From Desulfobacterium sp. (GTDB lineage: Bacteria > Desulfobacterota > Desulfobacteria > Desulfobacterales > Desulfobacteraceae), in NCBI GenBank assembly GCA_030145245.1, contig JAQYWC010000044.1:62001-126000 (forward strand): DNA of 64,000 nt, written 5' to 3'. Of the stretch, positions 46,545 to 62,906 are shown piece after piece; within the stretch, counting starts at the first letter, position 1, and every line of letters begins with the position of its first letter. The notes beneath the pieces are model-generated. The model had not been told where the DNA came from, searched no databases, and saw only the letters and a program-made list of their open reading frames with translations. The position numbers were made by a program, and so were the translations under genes.

Positions 46545-47060
46545 ATGAAAATCTTAAAAACAGCGATATTTACCTGCCTTACCCTTTGCTTTATTTCAAC
46601 CGGAGCCATGGCAACCATTGTGAAGAATTATTCTAATCTGACAAGCAACGGTACAACATATGATCAGTTAACTCATAAGAATGGGCTGACTGATACGGTT
46701 TCCCTGTCGGGTCTCGGGTTGACAGCTGGTGACGCTCTGGAAATAACGGCCAGTTTCACGGGTACCCAGGCCGGAGAAATCTGGAGCCTTTATACCGGCG
46801 AAAAAAAAGTCGGAGATTTAAACCCATGGAGCGGTACTGATCCTTTTACCTCCCAGGTATTTACCCTGCTACCATATAATTTCTCTTTGGACAGCATCAC
46901 CTTGGGCCTGGTTTCTTCCGGGAAGAAACCCGATGCCGGAATGAAAATCGACTATTTTGAGATCAGCAAGGTATCGTCCGTTCCGGCTCCCGCCGCGTTC
47001 TGGTTGTTCGGCTCGGGTCTGTTAGGACTGGCCATGTTCAAACGAAACAGACAGGGATAA
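46545..47060 (+). CDS. PEP-CTERM-type exported protein
   Basis: 171 residues: signal peptide (ACTL to GAMA, about 1-23), a short beta-rich mature domain, and a C-terminal sorting signal VPAPAAFWLFGSGLLGLAMF followed by KRNR, the PEP-CTERM variant processed by exosortase. It should be exported and possibly linked to an exopolysaccharide. No exosortase gene is in the window. Lower G+C than its neighbours. Confidence 0.82.
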   Translation: MKILKTAIFTCLTLCFISTGAMATIVKNYSNLTSNGTTYDQLTHKNGLTDTVSLSGLGLTAGDALEITASFTGTQAGEIWSLYTGEKKVGDLNPWSGTDPFTSQVFTLLPYNFSLDSITLGLVSSGKKPDAGMKIDYFEISKVSSVPAPAAFWLFGSGLLGLAMFKRNRQG

Positions 47061-47144: not shown

Positions 47145-49193
47145 TCAGGCGATCAGTTTCTCAATTTTAACCGCACCGACCTTGAACTCAGGAATCTTGG
47201 CGATGGGATCAAACGCCGTTGAGCTGGTCAAGGTATTGGTGGGGTTCTCGCCAAAATGGATGGGAAGAAAGACGTTATTTGGGGGCACGGAATCGGTAAT
47301 CTGTGCAGGCGCCTCGATCTCTCCCCTGCGGGAGGTCAAAAGAACCATGTCGCCGGAAGCGATGTTGAGCTTTTCCGCGTCCGCGGGATTGATATCCACA
47401 TAGCCGGTCTTCTGCTCGGTATCGAGGCTGTTTGAAACCCGTGTCATGGTGCCGGTGTGGAAGTGGGCAAACATCCTTCCCGTGGTCATCATCATGGGAT
47501 ACTCGGCACAGGCAGCCTCGGCAGGTTCCTTGAACTCGATGGCATGGAACATGCCCTTGCCCCTTGTAAAGGTCTCCTTGTGGAGATAGGGGGTGCCGGG
47601 ATGATCCTTGGCCAGGCAGGGCCACTGGAGCCCGTCGATGCCGATCCGGTCATAGGTCATTCCCTGGTAGCTCTTGGTGAGCGATGCCATCTCGTTGAAT
47701 ACCTCTTCCGGGGAGTCATAGGACATCCCATGGCCCAGGGCCGTTGCAAAACGTGAGATGATCTGCCAGTCCGGCAAGGCGTTCCCCACCGGCTCCACCG
47801 CCTTCTGGGTGAGCATGCAGCGCCGCTCCGTGTTGGTGAAGGTTCCCTGCCGCTCCCCAAGGGCGGCCGAGGCAAAGACAACATCGGCCACCTGGGCGCT
47901 CTCGGTGAGGAAGATATCCTCCACAACAAGGAAATCAAGCTTTTTCAAAACATGGTCCAGATGATTCTTGTCCGGATCGCTGAGCTTGGGATTCTCGCCG
48001 ATGACGTAGAGACCCTTGATTTTGCCCTCGTCAATGGCCGAGATCATGTCGGTGATGGTCATGCCCGGGGTGTCGGAGAGCTCTCCGCAGTTCCATGCAC
48101 TGGCAAACTTCTCCCGGACCTCTGGATCTGCAACGGGCTGGTAGCCGGTGAACACGTTGGGCAGCCCGCCCATATCGCAAGCGCCCTGGACATTGTTCTG
48201 GCCCCGCAGGGGATTGACACCCCCGCCTGGAACACCCAGGTTGCCGCAGAGCATGGCAAGGTTGCAACAGGACTTAACGTTGTCCACGCCCGTGGTGTGC
48301 TGGGTGATGCCCATGGCGTAGAGCAGGGCTCCGGGGGCGTTGGTGGCATAAAGCTCGGCCATCTGTTCTATATCCCGGGCGGCAATGCCGGTGATGGCCT
48401 CCACCCGCTCGGGGTCGTAGGACGCCACCGTCTTTTTGAGCGCTTCAAACTCCTCGCACCGTTTTTCCACATACTCTGCGGCGTGCCAGTCGTTCCTGAT
48501 GATCACATGCATCATGCCGTTGAGCAACGCAACGTCGGTTCCCAGGCGCTGGTGAACGGCGAGATCGGCAAACTTTGTGAGCTGGATATTCCGGGGATCG
48601 GCAACGATCAGCCGTGCCCCGTTCTCCTTCGCCTTGATGATCCGGTTGGCGATCAGGGGATGGCATGCGGTGGTGTTGGACCCGATGACAAAAATCACCT
48701 TGGAGTCGGTTTCAAACTCGGCAATGGAGTTTGTCATGGCTCCGCTTCCAAATGCAGCGGCAAGACCTGCCACTGTAGAGGAATGTCACAGCCGGGCGCA
48801 GTGATCCACGTTGTTGGTCTTGAGGGCAGCCCGGGCAAGCTTCTGGGCAAGGTAGTTCTCCTCGTTGGTCACCTTGGCAGACACCAGGACACCGATGGAA
48901 TCGGGACCGTGCTCCTCCTTGATCCTATTGAAATTCCTGGCGGCATGGTTGATGGCCTCGTCCCAGGTCGCCTTTTGAAACCGTCCCTCCTCCTTAACAA
49001 GGGGCGCCTTGAGGCGCATGAAACTGTTGATATATTCATGGAGGTTCCACCCTTTTATACAGAGCTTTCCCTGGTTGACCGGGTGGGACTTCAAAGGCAG
49101 GGTTGAGTTGATCTTTCCATCGATCACCTCGAAAAGAACCCCGCACCCTGTTCCGCAGTACGAGCAGACCGATGGTACAAACTTGCAGTTCAT
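47145..49193 (-). CDS. fdhA: Selenocysteine-containing formate dehydrogenase catalytic subunit
   Basis: 682 residues including one selenocysteine, coded by TGA at 48786-48788 (residue 136) in DHCARL-U-HSSTVAGL, exactly where Mo/W formate dehydrogenases have Sec or Cys. The frame is open on both sides and the product aligns across the TGA. N-terminus: one [4Fe-4S] domain CSYCGTGCG...GKLCIKG; then the bis-molybdopterin domains (VIGSNTTACHPL, ARGQNNVQGACDMG-type QNNVQGACDM, VFLTESA) and C-terminal dinucleotide-binding domain (MMTTGR, NPADAEKL, HFGENPTN). Short cytosolic type without NADH module. It oxidises formate or reduces CO2. RBS GGAG. Last gene of the Hdr operon. A hairpin after TGA provides the SECIS element. 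Confidence 0.93.
48746..48788 (-). promoter_or_regulatory. SECIS element of fdhA (with TGA Sec codon at 48786)
   Basis: Minus strand after the TGA: AGTGGCA, loop GGTCT, TGCCGCT, a 7-bp stem with one G-U, extended by an outer UUCC/GGAA pairing (48746-48749 with 48780-48783). The GGUCU loop is the one known from E. coli fdhF. It starts about 11 bases after the Sec codon. Confidence 0.8.
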
Positions 49194-49211
49194 TGTTCGT
49201 CTCCTATTTAC

Positions 49212-50024
49212 TTACGCATCCATGGGCTTGGGTTCCAATGTGACCTTGTCCCCGATGATGGTGAAGGGGGATTTCTCAATGCCCTCTCCCGGATTGTAGC
49301 CAAACACATCCCCGACAATCTGGTTCATCTGGCGATAGAGAAACCGCAGGGGAATCTCGGCTGGACAGGCATCCTCGCACAATCCGCAGTCCACGCACCG
49401 GCCGGCCATGTGGGTGGCCCTGACCAGGTGGAAGATCGGCACCTCCGGCGGAAGGGCCCCCGGCTCGATGAGATCGGGATTCTCAAGGCTGCATTCCGGG
49501 CAGAAGCAGACAGGGCAGACGTTCCTGCACCCATAGCACTTGATGCACTTGCTGAACTCGTACATCCAGTGGGAGAATCGCTCAGAATTGTCAAACTCCT
49601 CCATAAAGGCGTCGGGTTCGGCATTGTAGTCAATGCCGTTCTCTTTCTTGAACCATCCCGTCTCTTTCGGCTCAAGGTAGGAGCAGTCGCCGTGTTTCCG
49701 GGTTTTGGACGGGCAGCAGTTGACGTTAAGGGTCTCGATATTATCAGGGTTGAGCTGGTTCCAGGTGTAAAGGATGTTCAACGCCCGCTGATTACAGTCC
49801 CTTGCAATGATGCCGATCTTGAGGTCCGGCTTTTTTTCGGCAAGGTGGGTGGCCACCTTTTCCAGGCTGTAGCGGTGCTGACTCACCTTGAGGTTTTCAA
49901 GATCTTCCAGGTTGTCCATGGTGTAGCCGTGGGGAATCAGGTGGCCGTAAAGCTCCCTGTAACCGAGAAAGATATCGACCCTGCCCTGTTTGAGCAGCTG
50001 TTCAACCTGCCTTGTGATATCCAT
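49212..50024 (-). CDS. FdhB/FrhB-like iron-sulfur protein of the Hdr-Fdh module
   Basis: 270 residues. The N-terminal 120 residues resemble the beginning of F420-hydrogenase/formate-dehydrogenase beta subunits (IGIIARDCNQRAL). The C-terminal part has two ferredoxin-type [4Fe-4S] motifs, CIKCYGCRNVCP and CVDCGLCEDACP, with extra cysteines (CFCPEC, CCPSKTRKHGDC). No selenocysteine. It lies between MvhD and FdhA and probably carries electrons from the formate site to MvhD and HdrA. GGAGG RBS; its start overlaps the mvhD stop. Confidence 0.8.
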   Translation of the reverse strand: MDITRQVEQLLKQGRVDIFLGYRELYGHLIPHGYTMDNLEDLENLKVSQHRYSLEKVATHLAEKKPDLKIGIIARDCNQRALNILYTWNQLNPDNIETLNVNCCPSKTRKHGDCSYLEPKETGWFKKENGIDYNAEPDAFMEEFDNSERFSHWMYEFSKCIKCYGCRNVCPVCFCPECSLENPDLIEPGALPPEVPIFHLVRATHMAGRCVDCGLCEDACPAEIPLRFLYRQMNQIVGDVFGYNPGEGIEKSPFTIIGDKVTLEPKPMDA

Positions 50025-50466
50025 GGTTCCTCCTTCCCATTTCCTGGTGCTGGATGGCCGCCATGGGGCTGGGTCCCAGGCGCCTTATCTTTTCCGTGAA
50101 ATCCGTTACCACGCTGGCAAACTTCTGGGCCTCGGCCGAAGAGATCCACTCCAGATGGAGCCGGCCTTCGAGTCCCATGAATTTGAGCATTTCCTGAACA
50201 AAGGTGATTCTTTTGATGGTCATGTTATTACCGTACAGGTAATGGCAGTCGCCGATGTGTCAACCGCCCACCAGCACGCCGTCGGCCTTGCTCTGGAACG
50301 CCCTCAGGATATGATGGGGACTTACGCTTGCCGAGCACATGACCCGGATGATCCTTGTATTGGACGGATACTGCATGCGACTGACACCGGCCAGGTCGGC
50401 AGCACCATAGGTGCACCAATTGCACATAAAAGCGACAATTTTCGGTTCAAATACTTCCTCTTTCAC
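50002..50466 (-). CDS. mvhD: MvhD/VhuD-type [2Fe-2S] adaptor, selenoprotein
   Basis: 154 residues with selenocysteine 69 from the TGA at 50260-50262. Both sides align with MvhD: upstream [21 protein letters not shown] and MCSASVSP; downstream [11 protein letters not shown]. In most relatives the residue is Cys (GG-C-HIGDCHY). Start GTG 50466 (AAGGAG 8 bases upstream); a GTG at 50475 is too close. The small protein links a hydrogenase or dehydrogenase to HdrA and carries a [2Fe-2S] cluster. It overlaps the FdhB-like gene by 23 bases. Confidence 0.92.
50227..50262 (-). promoter_or_regulatory. SECIS element of mvhD (with TGA Sec codon at 50260)
   Basis: Minus strand: ATTACC, loop TGTAC, GGTAAT, a 6-bp perfect stem at 50227-50243, 16 bases after the TGA, the same distance as in the HdrD-like gene at 62136. 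Confidence 0.65.
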
Positions 50467-50518
50467 CAGATACACTCCTTTTACAGACCCGGAGACAGAA
50501 CAGCTCCCGGTTCATCGG

Positions 50519-53500
50519 TTATACTGTCATGGCACTCTTGATCTGCGCATACAACTGGTCATTGTTGAATCCCATCAGGGACGGCGCTTCCGAGGGACAG
50601 GTGGCGGCACAGGCGCCGCAGCCCTTGCACAGGGCGTCGTTGACCACGGCCACATGCTTTGCCGGATCCATGGTGATGGCGTTGTAGGAGCAGACCTCCA
50701 CACAGCCGCCGCAGCCGGCACAGCGTTCCGGGTTGATATTGGCAACAATTCCGCCCACGTTGATGCTGTCCCGGGAGAGCACGGTCAGGGCCCTTGCGGC
50801 CGCAGCCCTTGCCTGGGAGATGCTCTCGTCCACGGGCTTGGGATAGTGGGCCATGCCGCAGAGGAACAAACCGTCCGTGGCAAAATCCACCGGTCTCAAC
50901 TTCTGATGGGCCTCCAGGAACCAGCCGTCATTGTCCGACGTCACCTTAAAAGCCTGCCCGAGCCGGGTGTTGTCGTTGGGCTCGATGCGGGCGGCAAGGC
51001 AGAGGATGTCGGCATCCACGGCCAGGCGCAGGCCAAGGACATGGTCGGTGAACGCCACGGTTACATGGTCTCCCTCCGGGGTCACCACGGGCTTGTTGTC
51101 CAGGTCATACTGGAAGAAGAGGATCCCGAGATCCCTTGCCTCTTTGTAGAGGAACTCCCGCTGGCCATAGGTCCTGATATCCCGGTATAGCAGATACACC
51201 CCGGTTTCGGGATTTTTTCGCTTAAAGGCAATGGCGCTCTTGATGGAGTGGGTGCAGCAAACCTTGGAGCAATAGGGATGCTCCTGGTCACGGGATCCCA
51301 CGCACTGGATAAAGACCACGTTCTCGGCCCTGTCCACCACCTTTGAACCCTTTGCAAACCGGGCGTCCAGATCAAGGAGGGTCATGACAGCGTCATGCTC
51401 GCCATAACAATATTCTGCAGGCCTGGACTCTCTGGCTCCCGTGGCAAGCAGGGCCACGCCATGCTCCACGATCCGTGAGTCGTCTCCGGTGGCAACGGTG
51501 GTCTTGAAATTACCCACAAACCCCTCAACCCCATGGACGCTGGACCCAAGGAGGATGTGGACATGCTCGTCCGCCTCAACCTCGGAGATGAGCTTCCTGA
51601 CAAAAAGGGAAACCTCCTCGTTCTTGGAGGTCTTGTAGAGCAATCTGCCGTTGCCGCCCAGGGTCTGGTTCTGTTCCACCAGGGTCACGGGGTAGCCCTG
51701 GCGGGAGAGGGACAGGGCCGCTGTCATGCCGGTGATGCCACCCCCCACCACCAGTGCCGACTGGGTCACCGGCAGCTGGCTTTCGAACAGGGGCTCCAGG
51801 CGAAAGGCCTTGGCAACGGCCATGCGCACCAGATCCCTGGCCTTGGCTGTGGCAAGTTCAGGCTCGTTTGAATGGACCCAGGAATCCTGGTTGCGGATGT
51901 TGGCCATCTCAACCAGGTACTTGTTGAGCCCGGCATCTATCAGGGTCTCCCTGAAAAGGTCCTCGTGGGTCTTGGGGGTACAGGCGGCAATGACGATCCG
52001 GTTGAGCCCCTTCTCCTTGATCACCTCCACCAACTTGTCCTGGGTGTCCTGGGAGCAGGTGAAGAGATTCTCCTCCACATAGACCACGCCGGGCAGATGC
52101 CTTGCATACTCAGCCACGGCAGGAACATCCACGATACCGCCGATGTTGGTGCCGCAGTTACAGACAAAAACGCCAATCCTGGGGGATTCCCCTGCCACAT
52201 CCCGCTCCCGGGGAGTGGTGACGGCCCGGGTTTTTGAATTTCTTGCAAGTGCCAGGTTCTCGGTGGCAGCAGAGGCTGCCGCGCTTGCCTCCATCACGGA
52301 TTGGGGAATATCCTTGGGGCCTGTGAACACACCGCAGGCATAGACCCCGGGCATGGAGGTTGAAACCGGCTTAAAGCTGTCGGTCTTGATAAAGTTGGAC
52401 CGGTCAAGCTCGATGCCCATGGTTGTGGCAAGCTCAAAGCTGTCGGCACTGATCTCAAGGCCGGTGGAGAGCACCACCATGTCGAAGTTTTCCTTCACCA
52501 TGGCGCCCAGCTCATCCACGTAACCCATCACAAGGTTGCCCTTGTCGTGGTCCGGATACACGGAATGGACCCTGGACCGGACAAACCTCACACCGTTGTC
52601 CTTTGCTTTCTCATAATAACGGTCAAAATCCTTACCCTGGGTTCTCATGTCCATGTAAAAAATGGCGCAGTCCAGGGGCTCCTTGCTGTGGTCCTTTGCC
52701 ATCACCGACTGCTTGACGGCGTACATGCAGCAGACCGACGAACAATAGCCGTTGTTGCAACGGTTCTCGTCCCTGGAGCCCACACACTGGAGCCAGGCGA
52801 TCTTTTTCGGCTCTTTCTTATGCTTCTTGTCCGAGGGCAAAACAAGATGGCCGCCCTGGGGCCCGGTTGCCGAGAGCACCCGCTCAAACCCCATGGAGGT
52901 GACGATGTCGGGGTGCTGACCAAACGAGAGGTGATCCAGCTTTGACGGATCAAAAGACTTGAAACCCGTGGAAAGAACCACGGATCCCACGTTCAGCGTA
53001 ATCTCCTTCTTTTGATCCAGGTAGTTAATGGCATGGGAGGGGCACACCTTTTCGCAGGTGCCGCACCGTCCCTTTGTGAGATAGAGACAATTGTCCGGAT
53101 CAATGGAGTACTTCAGGGGAACGGCCTGGGAATATGGCACATAGATGGCCTTTCGCTTTCCAAGTCCCTCGTTGTACTCGTCATCCACCCGTTTGGGGCA
53201 TTTTTCAGCACACAGCCCGCAGGCGATGCACTTGTCCGTGTCAACATACCTGGGATGCTGAACCAGGGTGGCGGTGATGTCACCCTCCGAGCCCGATATG
53301 CCAGTGACTTCGGTTAATGTAAGCAGTTCTATATTGATGTGCCGGCCGACCTCGACCAGTTTGGGTGAGATAATTCACATGGCACAGTCATTAGTAGGAA
53401 AAGTCTTGTCCAGCTGGGCCATCTTACCGCCAATGGCCGGCGACTTCTCCACCAGGTAGACATAAAATCCTGAATTGGCGATGTCCAGGGCAGACTGCAT

Positions 53501-53572
53501 TCCTGCAACGCCGCCGCCCACGACCATCACCGACCCCTTGGGATCCGTTGGGGTTAGATCATTTCTTTCCAT
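50519..53572 (-). CDS. hdrA: HdrA-like flavoprotein, tandem double-module selenoprotein
   Basis: 1017 residues with selenocysteine 66 from the TGA at 53375-53377, in [16 protein letters not shown], where HdrA normally has Cys (CxLxPK motif) next to a [4Fe-4S] cluster. N-terminal FAD site [14 protein letters not shown]; ferredoxin motifs [12 protein letters not shown] and a Cys cluster in [11 protein letters not shown] second FAD site [16 protein letters not shown] (about 490-505) starts a second half-module, and the C-terminus has two more [4Fe-4S] motifs, [11 protein letters not shown] and [12 protein letters not shown]. The usual HdrA is about 650 residues, so this is a long, double form. 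HdrA is the flavin that bifurcates electrons. No hdrBC genes follow. GGAG RBS. Confidence 0.92.
53342..53377 (-). promoter_or_regulatory. SECIS element of hdrA (with TGA Sec codon at 53375)
   Basis: Minus strand: CTGGTC, loop GAGGTC, GGCCGG, a 6-bp stem (two G-U pairs) at 53342-53359, 15 bases after the TGA. The loop contains GGUC. Confidence 0.65.
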
Positions 53573-53591
53573 AAAACAACTCCAAGCACGT

Positions 53592-53963
53592 TTATTGATC
53601 GCTGTTTAACAACTCTTCCACGGCCTTGATCAGTTCATGGTCGGCAAAAGGCTTTGACAAATAGTCATTGGCCCCAAGCTTCATGGCCTTGACCGTGTTT
53701 GCGATGGTCGAATACCCGGTGATCACAATCACATACAGGTCAGGCTTTTCCTTTTTCACCCGCGCCAGGATCTCCATGCCGTCCATATCCTTGAGCTTCA
53801 TGTCCAAAAGCAGCATGTCATAGGGATAGTTCATCACCAGTTCAAGCCCTTCCGCGCCCGACAGGCAATGATCACAGAGGAATTCCTGTTCGTTTAAAAC
53901 CATTTTACAGGCCTTGCAGATCACATCTTCATCATCAATTATAAGAATTTTTCGTTGATCCAT
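53592..53963 (-). CDS. Single-domain response regulator
   Basis: 123 residues, only a receiver domain. Acidic pocket in ILIIDDED, phospho-Asp in [10 protein letters not shown] (about residue 54), switch Thr/Ser in ITGYS and Lys in SKPF. No output domain, so it may relay phosphate or act by binding HdrA or the kinase. It lies 19 bases before hdrA and 13 bases after the kinase gene, in the same operon. Confidence 0.92.
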
Positions 53964-53976
53964 TCCATCGCCTTTT

Positions 53977-55215
53977 TCATATAAGATCGTTGTTCTCCTC
54001 CAAAACAGGCAGCGTCAGCCTGATCAAGGTACCGATTCCCAATTCACTCGAGATATTGATCCTGCCCTGATGATTTCTGACAATTCCGTAGCTGACAGCA
54101 AGACCCAGTCCGGTTCCGTTGGACCGGGTGGTGTAAAACGGCTCAAAAATCTTCTTCAAATTATCCTTATGAATGCCGCACCCATTGTCTTCGACCTCCA
54201 CGACAACGCATTTCCCATCCTCACTCATTCCGGACCGTATGGTGATCAGACCCTTTTCACCGATGGCGTGGACCGCATTGAACAACAGGTTTACCAGCAC
54301 CTGCTCCAGCTGATCGTCATCCAGAAAAAAACTTCTGATGTCATAGTCAATATCCCGCACCACCTTGATTCTTCTGATGAACAACTCGTTATCCATAAGG
54401 GACAGGGATTTTTCGATCACTTTGTTGATGTTTGCCAGGATCTTCTGGGGCTTTTTCTCCCTGGAAAAATCGAGCAGTCCCTGGATGATCTTCTTGCACC
54501 GCTGGGTCTCCTGCATGATGATCTCAAGCCCCTCCCTGCAGGGCCCGGGCTCTGCCTTTTTCGACAGGTTCGAGCTGTAAAGGAGAATTCCCGTCAAGGG
54601 ATTGTTGATCTCGTGGGCAATACCTGCGGCCATCCGTCCCAGGGAGGACATGCGGTCCACCTTGGTGGCGAGCTGGTTGTACTGGATGATGTGGGACTTT
54701 ATTGCCTCATCGTGGTTGATGGCACAAGAGGTCTGCTCGGCAATGGCCCTGATGAAATCGATCTCATCCTCTGAAAATTCCCGTTTGGCCGTAAAGTAGA
54801 TCCGGGCAAATCCAAACACCGGGCCCTGATCCTGGCCTTTGATCCGGAGGGGAACATCCACTATCATGCGAATCCCCTCGTCCCAGACCTCCTGGGGATA
54901 TCTTACCCTTGGCGCCTTGAAAAGATCATCGATGATGTGAATCTCGTCATCGGTTTCAGGCCAGAGCAGCAGCTCCTTTCCGACCAGGGGCTCACGGGAA
55001 AGATAGGGTTCGGCCATGCCGTATGAGGAGCGAACCCTAAAATGGCCCACCTCCTTATCCATGACGCAGAGTACCCCACCATTTGCATCGGTCCCCTGAA
55101 CAATCCGGGAAACCACCAGCCCAAGGACTTCATTGATGTCGCTCTTGGAGTGGACAACCCCACTCACCTCTCTGAAGAGCCGATAATACGTCTTGTATCT
55201 TTCTATAGCGGTCAT
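53977..55215 (-). CDS. Cytosolic GAF-domain sensor histidine kinase
   Basis: 412 residues: GAF domain (about 15-175), H-box [18 protein letters not shown] (His about 205), ATPase domain with VVEVEDNGCGI and GTGLGLAVSYG. No membrane segment, so it reads a cytosolic signal, perhaps a redox or formate-linked state. It should feed the receiver proteins around it (53592, 55306, 56348). RBS GAGGA. Confidence 0.92.
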   Translation of the reverse strand: MTAIERYKTYYRLFREVSGVVHSKSDINEVLGLVVSRIVQGTDANGGVLCVMDKEVGHFRVRSSYGMAEPYLSREPLVGKELLLWPETDDEIHIIDDLFKAPRVRYPQEVWDEGIRMIVDVPLRIKGQDQGPVFGFARIYFTAKREFSEDEIDFIRAIAEQTSCAINHDEAIKSHIIQYNQLATKVDRMSSLGRMAAGIAHEINNPLTGILLYSSNLSKKAEPGPCREGLEIIMQETQRCKKIIQGLLDFSREKKPQKILANINKVIEKSLSLMDNELFIRRIKVVRDIDYDIRSFFLDDDQLEQVLVNLLFNAVHAIGEKGLITIRSGMSEDGKCVVVEVEDNGCGIHKDNLKKIFEPFYTTRSNGTGLGLAVSYGIVRNHQGRINISSELGIGTLIRLTLPVLEENNDLI

Positions 55216-55305
55216 TGACTTTCCTCATGTTTCTAAAAAACATTGACACCCGAATGCGTGAATAGAGTCACAACCTGTCTTCAACGCCAGCCCCACCTGA
55301 AAGCG

Positions 55306-55995
55306 TTACCAAACCTCACGCTCAAGGCGCTTGAACACGTACATGAGCTGCTTCTGGGTTAATTCTCCGACATTCTCGTTGATCCAGGCAAGGTCTCCTG
55401 AAGCGATGGCCGCCTTTGCATCGTTTGTGAGGGTGTATTCCCAAAGGGCATCCCCGCCCTTTTCCATGAGGCTGTTCCAGAACCTTTTATCCTCAGTGGT
55501 TCGGGTCAACACCTTGAGCACCTCCCGCTTCTGGATCGATATTACAGCCCCATCGGCTTTGGACACCATCCCCATTGCCTCGATCTTGGCCAGGTTTGAA
55601 GCAAGGGCGTCGTCGATGGCAGACTTTATCTGCTCTTCGGTAAAGGGCTTTGCAATGAAATCGCAGGCACCGAGTTTCATGGCATCCACGGCAAGGGCGC
55701 TTGTGGCATAACCTGTCATGGCGATCACGCCCGTTCCGGGATTGATATCCTTTACCTGCCTGATCACCTGCATGCCGTCGATGTCCGGCAGGCGAAGGTC
55801 CGCCATCAAAAGATCGTACTCAAACTGCCCCAGGGCGTCCAGGGCGCCGTGACCCGTGTCCCTGAGATCCACATCATACCCCTCTTCATCCAGAACCATC
55901 TTCAATCCCCGGGCAACATTCAGGTCATCTTCCATGATAAGGATGTGGGCAGGGTTGGTCGTTTCAGCCGTGGTCATCTCTTTTATTTCCCCCAT
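55306..55995 (-). CDS. Response regulator with uncharacterised C-terminal domain
   Basis: 229 residues from ATG 55995 (AAGGAG 6 bases upstream; the ATG at 56025 has no RBS). Receiver domain about 15-135 (ILIMEDD, LLMADLRLPD, MTGYATS, AKPF). The remaining 95 residues have no DNA-binding motif and include WNSLMEKGGDALWEYTLT and ENVGELTQKQLMYVFKRLE, a recurrent tail in regulators beside Hdr genes in sulfate reducers (my impression). First gene after the sigma-54 promoter at 56063. Confidence 0.85.
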   Translation of the reverse strand: MGEIKEMTTAETTNPAHILIMEDDLNVARGLKMVLDEEGYDVDLRDTGHGALDALGQFEYDLLMADLRLPDIDGMQVIRQVKDINPGTGVIAMTGYATSALAVDAMKLGACDFIAKPFTEEQIKSAIDDALASNLAKIEAMGMVSKADGAVISIQKREVLKVLTRTTEDKRFWNSLMEKGGDALWEYTLTNDAKAAIASGDLAWINENVGELTQKQLMYVFKRLEREVW

Positions 55996-56062
55996 GATAA
56001 ACTCCTTGTTTTCGGTCGATTTCATCGCTTCAACAATAGTTTTTGTGCTGAATCTTGTTAGT

Positions 56063-56077
56063 GCAGAGATCGTGCCA
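56063..56077 (-). promoter_or_regulatory. Near-consensus sigma-54 promoter of the Hdr-Fdh operon
   Basis: Minus strand TGGCACGATCTCTGC: TGGCACG is exact, GG and GC are 10 bases apart. It lies about 68 bases before the first gene (start 55995) and is followed upstream by two dyad repeats. Confidence 0.82.
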
Positions 56078-56194
56078 TTTTTTCAGGAGAATAGACAACG
56101 AAGCAAATCACAAGGTTTACTCTTTAAATCAAAGAAGTTACACAACAAATCCTTTTTCATCAACCAGCAGGTTTCCGGGCCTTGCCATTAAAAT

Positions 56195-56216
56195 CGCATA
56201 AACAAATATACGGCCC
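56195..56216. promoter_or_regulatory. Direct repeat 1, candidate activator-binding site
   Basis: CGCATAAACAAATATACG core: a pseudo-dyad CGYATA-N6-TATRCG on the minus strand. It repeats at 56262, 67 bases away, and lies about 118-155 bases upstream of the sigma-54 promoter, the normal place for NtrC-type sites. Confidence 0.6.
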
Positions 56217-56261
56217 ACACCTTTTTTTTAAAAAAACGCCCGCCCACAGGCACACACAAAC

Positions 56262-56283
56262 CGCATAAATAAATATACGCCCG
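56262..56283. promoter_or_regulatory. Direct repeat 2, candidate activator-binding site
   Basis: CGCATAAATAAATATACG core, same form as repeat 1. The remainder of the 55996-56347 gap holds the promoter and A/T-rich sequence; no gene. Confidence 0.6.
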
Positions 56284-56347
56284 GGGCCACAAAAATTATT
56301 CACCCCAATGGCACCCGGACACCAATGGAGATCATCCCCTTCAACGG

Positions 56348-57739
56348 TCAGGGATGGATATCGTTCTTCTTCATCATTGCAGAAAAATTTGACCGCTGCA
56401 TGCCCACGGTCTTGGCTGCCCTGGTGATGTTTCCGCCGGCCTCCACAAGGGCCCGGGTCAGAAACGAGCATTCGATGGGACCGAAGTTTTCCTCGAGAAA
56501 GCGTTTTTTCGCCAATTTCAGCTCGTCGAGACTCATGGGAACCGAGTGGGAGAACTCCAGGGGCTTTACTTCCAGGTTATCCATGAGCGCCCGGTGGTCG
56601 AGCAGATCTGTGTCGCACATGATCACTAGCCGTTCAACCACGTTTTTCAACTGCCTGACGTTACCGGGCCATTCAAAGTTCACAAGAGCCCTGAGGGCGT
56701 CATCGGAAAACCCCTCTATCTTTTTCTGGGCTTTACGGCTGAAGAGTCTCAAAAAATGATAGGCGATTCCCGGGATATCATCCCGCCGATCCCTGAGGGG
56801 AGGAATATGAATGGGAAAGACGTTCAGGCGATAGAAGAGATCCTCCCGGAACGTGCCCCCCTCCACCATTCCTGCAAGATCCCTGTTGGTGGCCGCAACA
56901 ACCCTGGCATGGGTGTGCCTGATCCGGCTCGCGCCCACAGGTTTGTACTCCCCGGTCTCAAGGACCCGCAAGAGCTTTCCCTGGATATCGAGATCAAGAT
57001 TGGCCACCTCGTCCAGAAAAAGGGTTCCGTCGCTGGCCGCCTCAAAGATACCGGTCTTGTTGGTGTCGGCCCCGGTAAAGGCTCCCTTGACATGGCCAAA
57101 TAGCTCACTCTCCATGACAGTGGATGAAAACGTACTGCAGTCAACGGCCAGGAACCGGCAGGAAGCCCGGTTGCTTCTCACATGGATGGCATTGGCAAAC
57201 AACTCTTTTCCGGTGCCGCTCTCACCGTCCAGGAGTACAGTGCTGTCCATGGGAGCAACCCGTTCAATCTTCTCGAAAATCTTCCGGATATTCGAATTCT
57301 CCCCGATGATATTGCTGAAATCGAATTTATCATAAAGCTGCTTTTTCAGGGAGTGGTTTTCCTTGACTAACTTAATGCTTTCAAGGGCCTTGACAACGGC
57401 ACCAAGGAGCTGCTCCTCGCTAAAGGGTTTGGTAATAAAATCATAGGCGCCGCACTTCATTGCCTCTACAGCGTTGTCCACGGTTCCGTTGCCCGTCATG
57501 ACCACCGCAGCCACATCAATACTTTTTTGTTTAAGGGTTTTGAGAATATCAATGCCGCTGATGTGGGGAAACTGGATGTCCAGGAGCACGAGATCAAAGG
57601 GGGTATCCAACAGCATTTTCAGCCCCTCCCTGCCCGAGGTGGAGACCTCCACTGCGTACCCCTGTTCTGAGAGAATCATCTTGCACCCGCTCACAATGGC
57701 AGGCTCGTCATCAACAACCAGAATCTTTGAATTCATCAT
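56348..57739 (-). CDS. NtrC-type sigma-54 response regulator
   Basis: 463 residues from ATG 57739 (AGAG upstream; ATG 57736 is equal). Receiver domain 1-120 (LVVDDEPAIV, LVLLDIQFP, TKPFSEEQ), AAA+ domain about 140-370 with Walker A GESGTGKE, exact contact loop GAFTGA and Walker B LFLDEV, then a Fis-type helix-turn-helix (GNITRAAKTVGMQRSNFSAM). Its DNA is adjacent to two sigma-54 promoters (56063, minus strand, and 58053, plus strand), so it may control both the Hdr-Fdh operon and the LonB operon. Its kinase is probably the product of 53977-55215. Confidence 0.92.
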   Translation of the reverse strand: MMNSKILVVDDEPAIVSGCKMILSEQGYAVEVSTSGREGLKMLLDTPFDLVLLDIQFPHISGIDILKTLKQKSIDVAAVVMTGNGTVDNAVEAMKCGAYDFITKPFSEEQLLGAVVKALESIKLVKENHSLKKQLYDKFDFSNIIGENSNIRKIFEKIERVAPMDSTVLLDGESGTGKELFANAIHVRSNRASCRFLAVDCSTFSSTVMESELFGHVKGAFTGADTNKTGIFEAASDGTLFLDEVANLDLDIQGKLLRVLETGEYKPVGASRIRHTHARVVAATNRDLAGMVEGGTFREDLFYRLNVFPIHIPPLRDRRDDIPGIAYHFLRLFSRKAQKKIEGFSDDALRALVNFEWPGNVRQLKNVVERLVIMCDTDLLDHRALMDNLEVKPLEFSHSVPMSLDELKLAKKRFLEENFGPIECSFLTRALVEAGGNITRAAKTVGMQRSNFSAMMKKNDIHP

Positions 57740-57829
57740 TTTTTCTCTACCGGGCAATTATTCACCCATTTAAGTAAACCACCTGTTCTTTTTTTCCAGA
57801 GCGTTCAAAAAACCGGCTCCCATACTCCC

Positions 57830-57846
57830 CCCTATAGATTATAGGG
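57830..57846. promoter_or_regulatory. Perfect dyad between the divergent regulator and LonB operons
   Basis: CCCTATAGATTATAGGG, 7-base arms around GAT, about 210 bases upstream of the sigma-54 promoter at 58053 and about 90 bases upstream of the regulator start. Possible activator or autoregulatory site. The rest of 57740-58052 shows no gene. Confidence 0.5.
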
Positions 57847-58052
57847 CTGCACTGTACAAGGCTATAACTTTTCCGTCAACCCGTGAGTAATCATTTCCTT
57901 TGTTTCACCAGAGGGATGACCCTGAGCCCATGGCCCTGTCCGCCCTTCACCATGAATTTGAGAATTTTATTTCCTAATCACACCTCGTTCTTTTGACATT
58001 AAGCTGTTGAAACCCTTAGCCTGCAAGGGGTTACCACAGGGTGGTACGGCCG

Positions 58053-58067
58053 AGGCACAACAATTGC
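58053..58067 (+). promoter_or_regulatory. Near-consensus sigma-54 promoter of the LonB operon
   Basis: AGGCACAACAATTGC: GGCAC and TTGC are exact and GG and GC are 10 bases apart. About 70 bases before the start of the next gene (58137). Confidence 0.78.
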
Positions 58068-58136
58068 AGAATTCTAAAAAAGAATATCTTGAAACAACCA
58101 AATACCTTCGCCGTCAAAAGGTTCGGGAGGTTAACC

Positions 58137-59330
58137 GTGGGCACAAAAGTGATCAAACACAAATCATATTTCGACAAAATCTGGTTGATATCCAGCGGAT
58201 GGAAATCATCCCTTGATCTTGAAAAAGCCTTTCCCGGATTCGAGACCGATTCCGTGAGGGAATACAGGATCAGCGATATTGCAAACTATATGATCAACCC
58301 CAACCCCATCAAAGTGAACAACCGGCTTATGGGATGCGAAATTATCCACCGGAGATCCGGATGGCAGACGATAAAAAAAAGAATCACTACCCTTTTTTCC
58401 AAGAACAGGAGGGACGATCCGGCCAGGACACCGGACCAGGGAGATGTTCTTCTTTCCGGTATCATTCCCAGCTCTTCCGCTGCCGCCGCAACCAAAGAGC
58501 TGAACACCCATATCAGCCGGATATACGACCTGCTGATCCCCTTTGACGCCCTGATCCAAAAGATATCCAACCTTGATAATGACTCGGTTCTCGACGTCAA
58601 CGGCATCTGCGAAGATCTGGAGGGGAACCGCTCGTTCATGCGCATCGCAGGACCTGTGGCGGATAAGATCAACTTTATCATCCACAACCTGTCGAAAGAG
58701 ACCCAGGTGCTGGTGGAAAAGGCCCACTTCAGCGAAGGGCTGTTTGAAATGCGGGCATTTGACTTCAAGGCATACAACCCGGACAACCACCACCGCCTGG
58801 TGAAATTCACTCAAAACGACAAACAAATGCTCTGCACCATAACCCATGACAACCGAGTGAATTATGTGTTGAAAGATGCGGAACTGATTACCTACCTCCA
58901 GCTGTTTGAACTTGCCCTCAAGGGAAACGATCCCCTGAAGGACCTGCTATACCATTACTGTGAAGGGTCGGCATTGCCACTGAAAATTCTCTTCAACCAG
59001 GAGATCAAGACAGATTACTCCAGAGCGAACCTTCCATTACTCTACAGGAGGATGGAGGAGAGCGGAACCATGGGGCCCCGGGAGAAAATGCTCATTGCCA
59101 AGGTGTTGAACCAGAAGCAATTCGGCCTATCCCTCAACTACATTCCACAGCAAGGGGAGTTCAACGAACGGCTGATCACCAGCATCTTTGTGATGCAGAA
59201 TCTCAAGGCCCTGGATCCCATCAAATCCCTTGCCCCTCAGCTATACTGGACCATCAACAGCAATGCAGCCATTTCCGAGGCCGGAACATTCTACTTAATC
59301 GACAGCATAAGAGGGGTCAGGGATGAATAA
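58137..59330 (+). CDS. Unknown partner of a LonB-like protease
   Basis: 397 residues from GTG 58137 (GGGAGG 6 bases upstream). An ATG at 58041 lies before the predicted transcription start (about 58079) and would add 32 unrelated residues. No signal peptide, membrane segment or known motif; mostly helical, soluble. It has a Pro/Arg/Asp-rich segment (about 90-105), then long helices. The stop overlaps the protease start (ATGAATAA), so both are made in step: it is probably a substrate adaptor, subunit or substrate. Not recognised as a known family. Confidence 0.75.
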   Translation: MGTKVIKHKSYFDKIWLISSGWKSSLDLEKAFPGFETDSVREYRISDIANYMINPNPIKVNNRLMGCEIIHRRSGWQTIKKRITTLFSKNRRDDPARTPDQGDVLLSGIIPSSSAAAATKELNTHISRIYDLLIPFDALIQKISNLDNDSVLDVNGICEDLEGNRSFMRIAGPVADKINFIIHNLSKETQVLVEKAHFSEGLFEMRAFDFKAYNPDNHHRLVKFTQNDKQMLCTITHDNRVNYVLKDAELITYLQLFELALKGNDPLKDLLYHYCEGSALPLKILFNQEIKTDYSRANLPLLYRRMEESGTMGPREKMLIAKVLNQKQFGLSLNYIPQQGEFNERLITSIFVMQNLKALDPIKSLAPQLYWTINSNAAISEAGTFYLIDSIRGVRDE

Positions 59331-61566
59331 AGGATATGACACCAACGACTACCAATGGATAAAAGAACTGATGCGCTACCCTGACACCCTGGAAAAGCGC
59401 CTGGGCTTTTTCGAAACCACGGCCGACATCGTGCTGCCCGAGGATCCAATAGAGCGGGTCATATTCCAGGCAAGGGCAAAGGTTGCCATCCGAAAAATTG
59501 CCCAGAACCGGGGACACATTCTCATGGTCGGAAAGCCGGGGACCGGCAAATCCCTGCTGGCAGAGATGTTCAGACAGGTCCTGGACAAATCCCTGGGAGA
59601 CTACCTGAGACCCAGGAAGGCCATTGTCGCCTTTCCGGGAAAAGATGACAACCATATCCGCATCGCCTATGAAGATCCCATGGTCATCGACGCCATCGTA
59701 TTAAGGCTCAAACGAGAGATCGAGACCGCCAAAAACACGGCTCCCCGGTTCTCGTTGTCCACCCAGATCAACGCTGCAAAACGCATGAGGCACTGGCTTG
59801 TTGCAGCCACCTGCATCTCGGCCCTGGTGGGGCTTGTTTTCCCACAGGCCTTTATCTTCACCGGTATTGCCGGCATCGGTGCCCTCTTCATGTTCATGCA
59901 GGAGAACAACCACGGCGCCCAGGAAAAGATCCAGCAAGTATCCATTCATACGCGCTCGGTCAAACTCAAACAGATCTCAGACCAGGTTCCTGAGGTGCTC
60001 TACGACCCCAGAAAGGAGGGGGATCTGATGGCCCGGGTCTCGGAACCGGATTCCCGGAACATGAAGGGCGGTTTTCGCCACGACCCCTACCAGTCGGCAA
60101 ACCTCCAGACCCCGCCCCACCAGAGGGCCTATCTCGGTGCCCATGCCAAGGCTCCCATCATCTACATCGATGAGCTCAAGACACTGATCCGTGCAGGCTA
60201 TATGTCGGATATGCTGGAGATCATGCAAAACCGCTCCTATATTCTGGAGGGGGGAAGAAACTCCGGCAGCGGTGCCGCAGACAGATCCGAGGATCCCATC
60301 AAGGCCGAGAACATCATCCTTGCCTGTTGCAACCACGATACCCTGTCCTATCTCCAGCAGGAGGGAGAGGGAGCATTCCTGAGCAGAATCGAGGACAAGG
60401 GGGAGATCATCCAGATGGAAAGCGTGGTGGCCGAAGATGCCAATACCATCCGCCAGGTTGTCCAATACGTCAAGCAGGAGATCGGCCAACTTGCAAAAGA
60501 GTTTGACCTCTCCTGGGGGGACGTCCTGGAAAAGGAGGGATATGAGGGAATCAGAAAACGTACCGAAATCATCATGGGACGCTCCCTTCCAAAAGATTTC
60601 AAGCTCGAGGAGAGGGAGTTTTCAAGAAAAGCGATCCTTGAAATCGTCAAGGAGCTCCGGTGCAGAGGCTATGACGGCAAGTTGAGCTGCATCCTCCGCC
60701 CCATCAACGGAATCATCAAGGCGGCCGAGTTCAACGCCATCCTGGAGAACTCCCCCCTGGTCGAGCCCCACCACGTGGTCGCAGCCCTTAAGGAGCACCA
60801 GGGCATCGAGGGAGAGATCTCAAGGGAGATCACCGACCACAAGAAGAACCTCAAAAAGTACATCGACACCATGACCGACTCCATCGGCTATGCCATCGGC
60901 CTTGCCGTGATCTCTTCAAAGGCGAGCGGGCGGATGTACGGCCAGCCCCTGCCCATCCACGGCCAGATCAACATTGGCAACAAGGACACGGTTCTGACTT
61001 CGGGACGAACCGGTGAGATTGCCAAAGCCGCGGCCCAGAATGTCAGGGCCTCCATCAAAAAGGTGCTGAAAAAGATCAATGCCCCCAACCTGGGCTTTGA
61101 GATGCACGTGGAGTATATCCAGGCCCATGACGGGGTTGAGGGAGACAGTGCCTCGGTGGCCATGGACATCGCCCTTGTGTCCGACTACATCAAACAGCCG
61201 GTGAACCAGAAGTATGCCATTACCGGCTCCCTGACCGGTGATATCATTCTCTCCGTGGGCGGGGTGGCCGAAAAGGTAAGATCTGTCATGGATACGACCC
61301 TTGGCATGGAGGGAGCCTGCATTCCCTGGCAGAACAAGCACGAGATCGAGCCGTTACTGATCAACCGGGAGATTAACTACGTCGAGAAAAACGCCGTACC
61401 CGGCATCAGGATTTACCGTGAGAAGGACCAGCAAGCCCCCTTTGACATATACTTCTGCAAGAACAAGTTCAGCGCCTACGAGATCGTGATGGACCTTGAC
61501 CGGGAACAGGTGGAAGAACTCATGATCCAACGGAGCAAGAAGGACCTCGCGTTCATGCGAACCTGA
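59323..61566 (+). CDS. Membrane-anchored LonB-like ATP-dependent protease
   Basis: 747 residues. Walker A GKPGTGKS (about 70-77), two adjacent membrane segments at about 155-193 inside the AAA+ domain, Walker B PIIYIDELKTL (about 275-285), then the S16 peptidase domain (about 525-740) with catalytic Ser in EGDSASVAM (about 606) and Lys in GVAEKVRSV (about 649). The inserted membrane hairpin and lack of the long Lon-A N-domain are typical for archaeal LonB. It degrades proteins at the inner membrane. Expression with an unknown soluble partner under sigma-54 suggests a stress- or nutrient-specific role. Confidence 0.9.
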   Translation: MNKGYDTNDYQWIKELMRYPDTLEKRLGFFETTADIVLPEDPIERVIFQARAKVAIRKIAQNRGHILMVGKPGTGKSLLAEMFRQVLDKSLGDYLRPRKAIVAFPGKDDNHIRIAYEDPMVIDAIVLRLKREIETAKNTAPRFSLSTQINAAKRMRHWLVAATCISALVGLVFPQAFIFTGIAGIGALFMFMQENNHGAQEKIQQVSIHTRSVKLKQISDQVPEVLYDPRKEGDLMARVSEPDSRNMKGGFRHDPYQSANLQTPPHQRAYLGAHAKAPIIYIDELKTLIRAGYMSDMLEIMQNRSYILEGGRNSGSGAADRSEDPIKAENIILACCNHDTLSYLQQEGEGAFLSRIEDKGEIIQMESVVAEDANTIRQVVQYVKQEIGQLAKEFDLSWGDVLEKEGYEGIRKRTEIIMGRSLPKDFKLEEREFSRKAILEIVKELRCRGYDGKLSCILRPINGIIKAAEFNAILENSPLVEPHHVVAALKEHQGIEGEISREITDHKKNLKKYIDTMTDSIGYAIGLAVISSKASGRMYGQPLPIHGQINIGNKDTVLTSGRTGEIAKAAAQNVRASIKKVLKKINAPNLGFEMHVEYIQAHDGVEGDSASVAMDIALVSDYIKQPVNQKYAITGSLTGDIILSVGGVAEKVRSVMDTTLGMEGACIPWQNKHEIEPLLINREINYVEKNAVPGIRIYREKDQQAPFDIYFCKNKFSAYEIVMDLDREQVEELMIQRSKKDLAFMRT

Positions 61567-61586
61567 TCATAGGCGCCTGGCTTGAA

Positions 61587-62906
61587 TCATCCGCTGCTCT
61601 CAGGCAGGTTGACCTCCTGAAGATCCTCGCCCAGATGAACCCGCTCGCTCTCCCCCAGGATTCCCAGGGCAAGCCCCAGAATCGTCCATGCATGAACCGC
61701 ATGGTATCCGCCACCAAAATGTTCACCCAGCTCGTGGATCTGGGCATGGCAGTTGTGGCAGCCCGTGACGCAGTAGTGGGCTTTGGTGGCCTGGATCTGC
61801 TCATCCTTGGTCCTTCCGTACAACAACCGCTCCTCCTTGAACCCTGACTGGAGAAACCCGCCCCCTCCGCCGCAGCAGAAGTTGTTGGAGCGGTTGGGAG
61901 CCATATCAATGAAGTTTTCCTCTCCCACACAGGCTTTGACCACCAGGCGCATGTCTTCGGCCGCAGGGTCCCCAAAGGTCTTTCTCACGATCTGGCAGGG
62001 ATCCTGGACCGTGAATTTGATCTTGAGATCGTTGTTCCAGCTGGAATCGGGTTTGAGCCGTCCCTCCCGGATCCACCGTGCATACAGGTTATACATGGTC
62101 TCGACCTTGAATTTGTGAGGAATGTTGAATTTTTTCAGTCCTGACAGGACTGCAAATGTAATATGGCCTCACTCGGTATTGAGAAAGGTCTTGCACCCCA
62201 GTTCATCGCACTTTTCGGCGCTCCTTTGGGTAAGCTCCTTCCATCCGTCGTCATCTGCCATGAACATGCAGTAGTTTTCAGCGGCCCACCCCACGCTGCC
62301 GTAGGTCCAGTCCACCCCGGCAAGGTTGAGGATCTTCCACAACGGCCCCATCTCCTCCGGCTCGATCATGGGTTCCCTGGAATTCTGGTTGATGAAAAAT
62401 TCGGCCCCCTTCTTGTCAATGGGTGCCACCAGGTTCCGCTCCTCCCATATGGGGTACTCCTCCTTTATCTCGTCCAGGATATCCCCCACCACAAACTCGA
62501 AATCCTCCTGGGAGCATCCCATGGCCGAGTTGGTCGGCTTTGAAAGGGCCATGTCGCAGGAGCCGAGGATACCCTTTGGAACCTTATCCCTGGGCGTGAG
62601 TTTTCTTGCGTTAAAGACAAGCTGGGGGATGTTGATCTCCATGGGGCAGACATGGACACACCGGGTGCACATGGTGCAGAACCAGGGCCACCGGCTCTCC
62701 TTGATCGCATCGTCCATGCCAAGGGCCGCCATTCTCAGGAACTTCCTAGGATCCATGCCGTCAAAGCCAGTTGCCGGACACCCCGAACAGCAGGCACCGC
62801 AGGTGAGGCAGGCGTTGAGATTGCCCCCGTCCGGGAGCAGGCCCATGACCATGTCCTTGAACGCACTCTTTCGTTTTCCAGATAGTTTTATCACGTCTTT
62901 TGCCAT
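61587..62906 (-). CDS. HdrD/TmcB-like iron-sulfur subunit, selenoprotein
   Basis: 439 residues with selenocysteine 246 from the TGA at 62169-62171, in LNTE-U-GHITFAV, where relatives have a Cys in the E-C-G-H motif. Two [4Fe-4S] motifs (CLTCGACCSGCP, CTMCTRCVHVCP) are followed by the CCG domain (DPCQIVRK, NNFCCGGGGG, CVTGCHNC), which holds the noncubane cluster of Hdr-type enzymes. No membrane segments. Start ATG 62906 has GGAGG 5 bases upstream; an upstream ATG at 62942 is unlikely. It stands alone 23 bases from the convergent LonB stop; it may pair with the Hdr-Fdh module or with a membrane haem subunit encoded elsewhere. Confidence 0.9.
62136..62171 (-). promoter_or_regulatory. SECIS element of the HdrD-like gene (with TGA Sec codon at 62169)
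   Basis: Minus strand: CAGTCC, loop TGTCA, GGACTG, a 6-bp perfect stem at 62136-62152, 16 bases after the TGA. Confidence 0.65.

Follow-up and report, generated by a model that had tools for sequence, protein, structure and literature searches.

A formate dehydrogenase-Hdr operon of Desulfobacterium sp. with selenocysteine codons in hdrA, mvhD and fdhA

The window analyzed here, a stretch of 64,000 nucleotides from the 6.42 Mb draft genome of Desulfobacterium sp. (assembly GCA_030145245.1, contig JAQYWC010000044.1, positions 62,001 to 126,000), carries the consecutive genes hdrA, mvhD, fdhB and fdhA, and hdrA, mvhD and fdhA each contain an in-frame UGA that we assign to selenocysteine (Sec). 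We consider it likely that this is a normal bacterial selenoprotein operon encoding a formate-oxidizing, probably electron-bifurcating FdhA-FdhB-MvhD-HdrA complex under sigma54 control.

In-frame UGA codons and the selenocysteine machinery

When TGA was read as a residue to find long frames, hdrA (50519..53572, minus strand, 1017 amino acids), mvhD (50002..50466, minus strand, GTG start, 154 amino acids) and fdhA (47145..49193, minus strand, 682 amino acids) each proved to contain a single internal TGA. It lies at 53377-53375 in hdrA (residue 66, context NDCAM-U-IISP), at 50262-50260 in mvhD (residue 69, context VGG-U-HIGD), where a second TGA is the stop codon, and at 48788-48786 in fdhA (residue 136, context CARL-U-HSS), which also ends on TGA. 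A gene for an HdrD/TmcB-like iron-sulfur protein in a separate transcription unit (61587..62906, minus strand) likewise has a single internal TGA, at 62171-62169 (context LNTE-U-GH), and a terminal one. The UGA of hdrA aligns with a cysteine of the solved HdrA chain 5odc_A (chain residue 197 by ungapped count), that of mvhD with a cysteine of 5odc_D and that of fdhA with a non-standard residue, X, of 9t1s_L; in homologues, the column of each of these three UGAs is occupied by Cys or Sec, as is that of the UGA in the HdrD-like gene. For HdrA, the 114 rows of the tree set comprise 109 with U, four with C and one in which the position is not covered, and the UGA is retained at the same column in relatives that include independently sequenced genomes. 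The original prediction, made from the letters of this stretch, had held that the three genes each need an in-frame TGA and that, together with the HdrD-like gene, four Sec genes lie within 13 kb; both statements stand, the latter if measured between the UGA codons at either end (48788 to 62171). The range that it gave for the three genes, 50002-53572, encloses hdrA and mvhD but misses fdhA, which lies at 47145-49193.

The genome yields one match each above the curated cut-off for selA, selB, selD and tRNA-Sec (selC), weaker matches (EF-Tu-like proteins, ordinary tRNAs), which control genomes yield too, having been excluded. The presence of selA, selB and selC had been set beforehand as a test of the prediction, and all three were found, with selD in addition. 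Across the five families searched, the genome has at least 20 candidate Sec genes: five of 48 matches for HdrA/HdrL (leaving out one weak ferredoxin-type match with a TGA), five of 12 for MvhD, six of 14 for FdhA, three of 14 for HdrD-like proteins (one of them with an additional TAA within the match) and one of four for SelD. The selD gene (locus L010, positions 156-1079 of contig C33) carries one in-frame TGA, so that selenophosphate synthetase is probably itself a selenoprotein here.

Predicted SECIS elements and codon conservation

Just downstream of the UGA, a predicted selenocysteine insertion sequence (SECIS) hairpin is found in frame in all four genes, on the minus strand like the genes themselves: at 53342..53359 in hdrA (18-35 nucleotides after the U of the UGA), at 50227..50243 in mvhD (19-35 nucleotides after the UGA), at 48755..48775 in fdhA (13-33 nucleotides after the UGA, with compensatory pairs) and at 62136..62152 in the HdrD-like gene (19-35 nucleotides after the UGA). 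A SECIS search had been proposed along with the original prediction, and its outcome, a hairpin 13-35 nucleotides after the internal UGA of each of the four genes, speaks in favor of it.

Codon conservation was measured as the frequency with which positions encoding the same amino acid share their codon between genes, in segments of eight codons, for 20 loci of this operon type. Usable sequences amounted to 19 for hdrA (that of L044 has a broken frame), 20 for mvhD and 19 for fdhA (L046 was lost). Against mean same-codon use of 0.474 in hdrA and 0.476 in both mvhD and fdhA, the top-ranking segment begins five codons past the Sec codon in hdrA (mean 0.86, rank 1 of 999), six codons past it in mvhD (0.87, rank 1 of 133) and two codons past it in fdhA (0.70, rank 1 of 674). 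These segments coincide with the stretches that fold into the hairpins. The HdrD-like gene has the same codon pattern, the segment after its UGA being the best of 427 in a set of 14 sequences. The fdhA stem provides covariation: among 19 distinct sequences, three of the eight pairs differ on both sides, and of these three, two stay paired in all 19 sequences and the third in 17.

Some observations weigh against the hairpins. In fdhA, a segment 157 codons away from the UGA ranks third, with 0.67 as compared to 0.70. Among the four genes, both-sided pair changes occur in fdhA only; the hdrA stem is paired in 19/19 distinct sequences with one-sided changes only, the hairpin sequence being identical in 17 of them, and the mvhD stem is invariant in 19/19, so that for these two genes the case for the structure is made by codon conservation and folding. 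In some single sequences, moreover, the minimum-energy fold of the 57-nucleotide stretch pairs the hairpin bases differently.

Standard open reading frame (ORF) calling splits each of these genes at the internal UGA, just as expected if the UGAs were true stops in broken genes or sequencing errors, but this explanation is rejected as exceedingly improbable in view of the conservation of the codon across independently sequenced genomes, the prevalence of U among the HdrA rows, the hairpins and the complete Sec machinery. We give equally little credence to a genome-wide reassignment of UGA to an ordinary amino acid, without SECIS-dependent Sec decoding: it would fit the close spacing of several UGA-containing genes, but mvhD, fdhA, the HdrD-like gene and the histidine kinase gene described below all terminate on UGA, and the internal UGAs examined sit at Cys columns of homologues with a hairpin after each. 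Furthermore, four of nine relatives in which the end of fdhA is visible have TAA or TAG at the codon where three have TGA, while the remaining two extend for a few codons and then reach TGA. Judged from these sequences, the terminal UGAs act as stops, which contradicts reassignment.

The internal UGAs are no chance product, because the column is kept in relatives, the Sec machinery is present and the codons after the UGA are the most conserved ones. Taken together, the sequence evidence identifies the UGAs of hdrA, mvhD and fdhA as codons for selenocysteine, decoded by the SelABCD machinery with the aid of the predicted in-frame SECIS hairpins.

A candidate formate-oxidizing complex

Between mvhD and fdhA lies the gene for an FdhB-like iron-sulfur protein (49212..50024, minus strand, 270 amino acids). 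The mvhD gene runs 23 bases into the start of fdhB, and the remaining spacings from the first upstream regulator gene through fdhA are 19, 52 and 18 bases. MvhD matches FlpD (PF02662) with an E-value of 2.2e-51 (173.4 bits, cut-off 22.3), and FdhA, which has the Sec-His active site, matches TIGR01591 with 830.6 bits (cut-off 666.25). HdrA matches NF040770 (HdrA2) with an E-value of 2e-287 and 955.5 bits. It stays below all NCBIfam HdrA cut-offs (955.5, 714.3 and 706.1 bits versus 1100, 1400 and 1300); NF040770 also covers an MvhD part, and the order of domains in HdrA differs. The protein has a flavin domain with an inserted ferredoxin domain, the HdrA N-terminal domain and the C-terminal ferredoxin part. 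Three of its stretches jointly cover nearly all of 5odc_A in changed order, and it carries a further flavin-domain half beyond these parts and hence two halves in total, which fits the duplications and fusions of hdrA that a 2006 survey records (PMC1794560). In the FdhB-like protein, the domain scan matched Fer4 domains only and no FrhB/FdhB flavin-F420 domain; the protein strongly matches solved FdhB chains solely in their C-terminal iron-sulfur part.

By sequence and by analogy, the products of fdhA, fdhB, mvhD and hdrA would form one complex. FdhAB-MvhD-HdrABC is a known complex of methanogens, in which MvhD links Hdr to either Fdh or Mvh and has its [2Fe-2S] cluster near the bifurcating flavin adenine dinucleotide (FAD), as described in work on these enzymes (PMC12350162, PMC6019823). 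In the complex proposed here, FdhA would oxidize formate at a Mo/W-Sec site, electrons would pass via the [4Fe-4S] clusters of FdhB and the [2Fe-2S] cluster of MvhD to the HdrA flavin, and the latter would probably bifurcate them to ferredoxin and an acceptor of higher potential. As FdhB is short and has no detected F420/FAD domain, the donor is likely to be formate and not F420H2.

Two points tell against the bifurcating part of this proposal. From the regulators through fdhA, the operon genes in the window include neither hdrB nor hdrC, which leaves the second half of the bifurcation unaccounted for, and the form of HdrA with two flavin-domain halves differs from 5odc, so that the bifurcation site is not assured. 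It is therefore possible, albeit in our view distinctly less probable, that the complex does not bifurcate and works as a plain formate:ferredoxin oxidoreductase, or in reverse as a CO2 reductase, with HdrA as an electron conduit. Besides the lack of hdrB and hdrC, this would agree with the direct succession of the four genes in 37 rows of relatives (in which hdrB and hdrC were not searched for) and with the complete oxidation of organic carbon to CO2 reported for the relative HRM2 in its genome paper (PMC2702500), which makes formate handling in either direction plausible. On the other hand, HdrA and MvhD belong to bifurcating complexes characterized in the literature (PMC5861303, PMC12350162), and possible HdrD-type partners are encoded in the genome. 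For the bifurcating complex, an HdrD-type protein is a candidate for the high-potential acceptor. The most far-reaching version, a sigma54-controlled, F420-independent formate-bifurcating complex with selenium in formate oxidation, in the [2Fe-2S] relay and in the flavin protein, and with the separately encoded HdrD/TmcB-like selenoprotein as its high-potential partner, strikes us as quite doubtful; if true, it would amount to a selenium-only route leading from formate in the direction of sulfate respiration.

Upstream regulators and neighboring genes

Directly upstream of hdrA, a single-domain response regulator is encoded (53592..53963), followed in the domain scan by a GAF-domain histidine kinase (53977..55215), whose gene has the stop codon UGA, and a response regulator with a C-terminal extension (55306..56025). 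Still further upstream lies the gene for a sigma54-dependent response regulator (56348..57757), which, from its translation, we take to be of the NtrC type. All four are on the minus strand, in agreement with the original prediction that the three Sec genes stand side by side in a bacterial operon with a two-component system. A candidate sigma54-type -24/-12 promoter (56062..56077, minus strand) precedes the block of regulators and hdrA through fdhA. Under a home-made weighting of the sigma54 consensus, all 14 of the 14 regions that separate the NtrC-type regulator from its neighboring gene contain a GG-N10-GC site with a score of 12.1 or more; with the 64-kb window alone as background, 37 sites on both strands reach this score, which corresponds to about 0.1 expected per region of 300-500 bases. 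Another site scoring 12.1 lies upstream of fdhA within coding sequence. In L153 the region is longer (1847 bases) because the regulator is doubled, and the highest-scoring site precedes the first copy.

The regulator block is kept in 13 of 17 loci with Sec in all three proteins, by thresholds set here. Seven loci (L151-L157), including L153 with its doubled regulator, preserve the order of the four regulators and the operon, and in six others (L045, L047, L069, L084, L158 and L159) three of the four regulators are present, rearranged in five cases; in L158 and L159 a further, weaker regulator match adjoins the kinase. The remaining four loci count against a general association. L160 begins inside a regulator gene at a contig end, the upstream sequence of L070 and L078 is shorter than 3 kb, and in L048 the regulator block is absent from 10 kb of upstream sequence. 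Overall, the sequences suggest that the histidine kinase and the regulators, including the NtrC-type protein, probably control transcription of the operon from a sigma54 promoter.

The HdrD-like gene, whose product was identified as an HdrD/TmcB-like iron-sulfur protein by profile matches, was rejected as a member of the hdr-mvhD-fdh operon, because two plus-strand ORFs (58041-59330 and 59323-61566) intervene and none was found near hdrA in four relatives: there was no HdrD-like match above 90 bits upstream of hdrA within about 27 kb in genome G002, 23 kb in G004, about 18 kb in G027 and 19 kb in G030. The stretch upstream of hdrA in G002 contains another Sec hdrA-mvhD pair. Tail to tail with fdhA, a small protein is encoded on the plus strand (46545-47060); its C-terminus, VPAPAAFWLFGSGLLGL...R, resembles a PEP-CTERM-type sorting signal.

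Relation to known systems

Genome G002, from the same genus, is presumably that of Desulfobacterium (Desulforapulum) autotrophicum HRM2. It has the same eight-gene block with UGA in hdrA, mvhD and fdhA as here, and its HdrA is 84% identical to the one in the window; orthologue divergence is the only difference seen.

An operon for a Sec-containing formate-Hdr system is already known and ordinary for this bacterial group, as follows from the HRM2 genome paper, the 2006 survey, Desulfococcus multivorans and a review from 2026. The 2009 HRM2 paper reports the Sec machinery and at least 31 selenoproteins, among which it lists hdrA1, hdrA2, hdrL1, hdrL3 and hdrD4, mvhD1, 2, 3 and 5, and fdhA1, 3, 5 and 6; hdr loci V and VI include mvhD, fdhB and fdhA, and the legend of its Fig. 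4 mentions response-regulator and histidine-kinase neighbors, although the text available to us places no three Sec genes explicitly in one operon (PMC2702500). The survey describes Sec hdrA-frhD operons in Deltaproteobacteria and Sec in bacterial HdrA, FrhD/MvhD and FdhA (PMC1794560), Sec HdrA, MvhD and FdhA are reported for Desulfococcus multivorans (PMC5109826), and the review treats selenoprotein operons (PMC13188914). The novelty that the original prediction implied for Sec in these bacterial proteins is thus forestalled by publications going back to 2006 (PMC1794560, PMC2702500).

The glpC-hdrA-frhD-frhG-frhA operon described for Syntrophobacter and Desulfotalea likewise has Sec hdrA and frhD (=mvhD) side by side. 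It contains the hydrogenase genes frhG and frhA where fdhB and fdhA stand here, and its Sec GlpC-type gene lies inside the operon, whereas the HdrD-like gene of the window is separate (PMC1794560). With the methanogen FdhAB-MvhD-HdrABC complex (PDB 7bkb series), and with 9t1s, FdhA, FdhB, MvhD and HdrA are homologous by sequence (PMC12350162), but the operon lacks hdrBC, its FdhB has 270 residues as compared to 380-414 and no detected F420/FAD domain, and its HdrA has a second flavin-domain half, unlike that of the methanogens. Archaeal type II HdrA clusters are described as carrying mvhD-fdhB-Molybdop beside HdrA, sharing mvhD, fdhB and an FdhA-family protein with the operon here; a catalytic role has been argued against for their Molybdop protein, with F420H2 proposed as donor, while FdhA of the window keeps Sec-His (PMC12054007).

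Distribution among relatives

A HdrA match with an E-value of 1e-200 or less is present in 55 of 58 genomes (own, genus, family and order), and 29 of the 30 best-scoring HdrA loci in this search contain one TGA. For locus comparison among named GTDB genomes, the best 80 of at least 567 confirmed stretches were used; all their records are named Desulfobacterota or Deltaproteobacteria groups or simply Proteobacteria. The 37 rows with the gene order hdrA-mvhD-fdhB-fdhA are redundant and some contain partial genes; none has Cys at any of the three Sec positions, some missing a position. Another 17 distinct loci have the four-gene operon with all Sec (19 before removal of the duplicates L042=L151 and L043=L160), defined by Sec visible in HdrA and FdhA together with an MvhD of the type in the window; L060 and L086 likewise have Sec in all three proteins, but their MvhD is of the double-Sec type. 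Of 113 distinct HdrA sequences of full length, 96 are encoded next to an MvhD, 95 of them with a visible HdrA residue: HdrA/MvhD pairs are Sec/Sec in 90 cases, Sec/Cys and Cys/Sec in one each and Cys/Cys in three, counts that are no census because the sample consists of the best-scoring relatives of one Sec protein. Distinct FdhA sequences above 500 bits have Sec in 29/29 cases, counting rows with U or C at the position. In the tree, L122-L131 (the same genomes as L151-L160) carry no operon label, and counts of label changes were given no weight.

The scores of the regulators, mvhD, fdhB and fdhA in L084 are similar to those in the relatives of the window, but its hdrA is from another clade, which points to an exchange of hdrA within the existing operon; L070 and L078 resemble L084 in that HdrA belongs to a different clade than MvhD, FdhB and FdhA suggest. 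Five Sec genes in a row (hdrA-mvhD-hdrA-mvhD-hdrD-like) occur in L083, L085, L089, L102, L111, L115 and L118, two of which (L085 and L115) come from records of Olavius worm symbionts, and L073 has six; with such loci among the relatives, the idea that three Sec genes in a row are a record was dropped. Of 143 redundant MvhD hits, 11 (L050, L056, L060, L063, L073, L081, L086, L097, L161, L162 and L163) carry two in-frame UGAs, one in the CxxC motif, at its second position, and the other at GG-U-H. A further 16 of the 143 have Sec at the CxxC position alone, so that the Sec site shifts within MvhD. The idea that double-Sec MvhD is new was dropped, since the 2026 review covers multiple Sec in archaeal FrhD/VhuD, where its table has the entry 2, taken as the number of Sec residues (PMC13188914). 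In L161-L163, L050, L056, L063, L073, L081 and L097, the double-Sec mvhD is preceded by a second Sec hdrA that aligns in three successive, separate pieces (residues 14-253, 254-447 and 461-1013 in L161).

Implications

The recoding events, spotted without tools in the original prediction, proved to be real. A modest question concerns the high-potential electron acceptor of a complex without HdrBC, and whether the regulator block senses formate, selenium or the redox state. That sulfate-reducing Desulfobacterota use selenocysteine heavily in their Hdr, Mvh and Fdh proteins is established, and the analysis presented here makes small additions to this picture, namely the evidence for SECIS elements and, upstream, a two-component block with a sigma54-like site, conserved in most, but not all, relatives.

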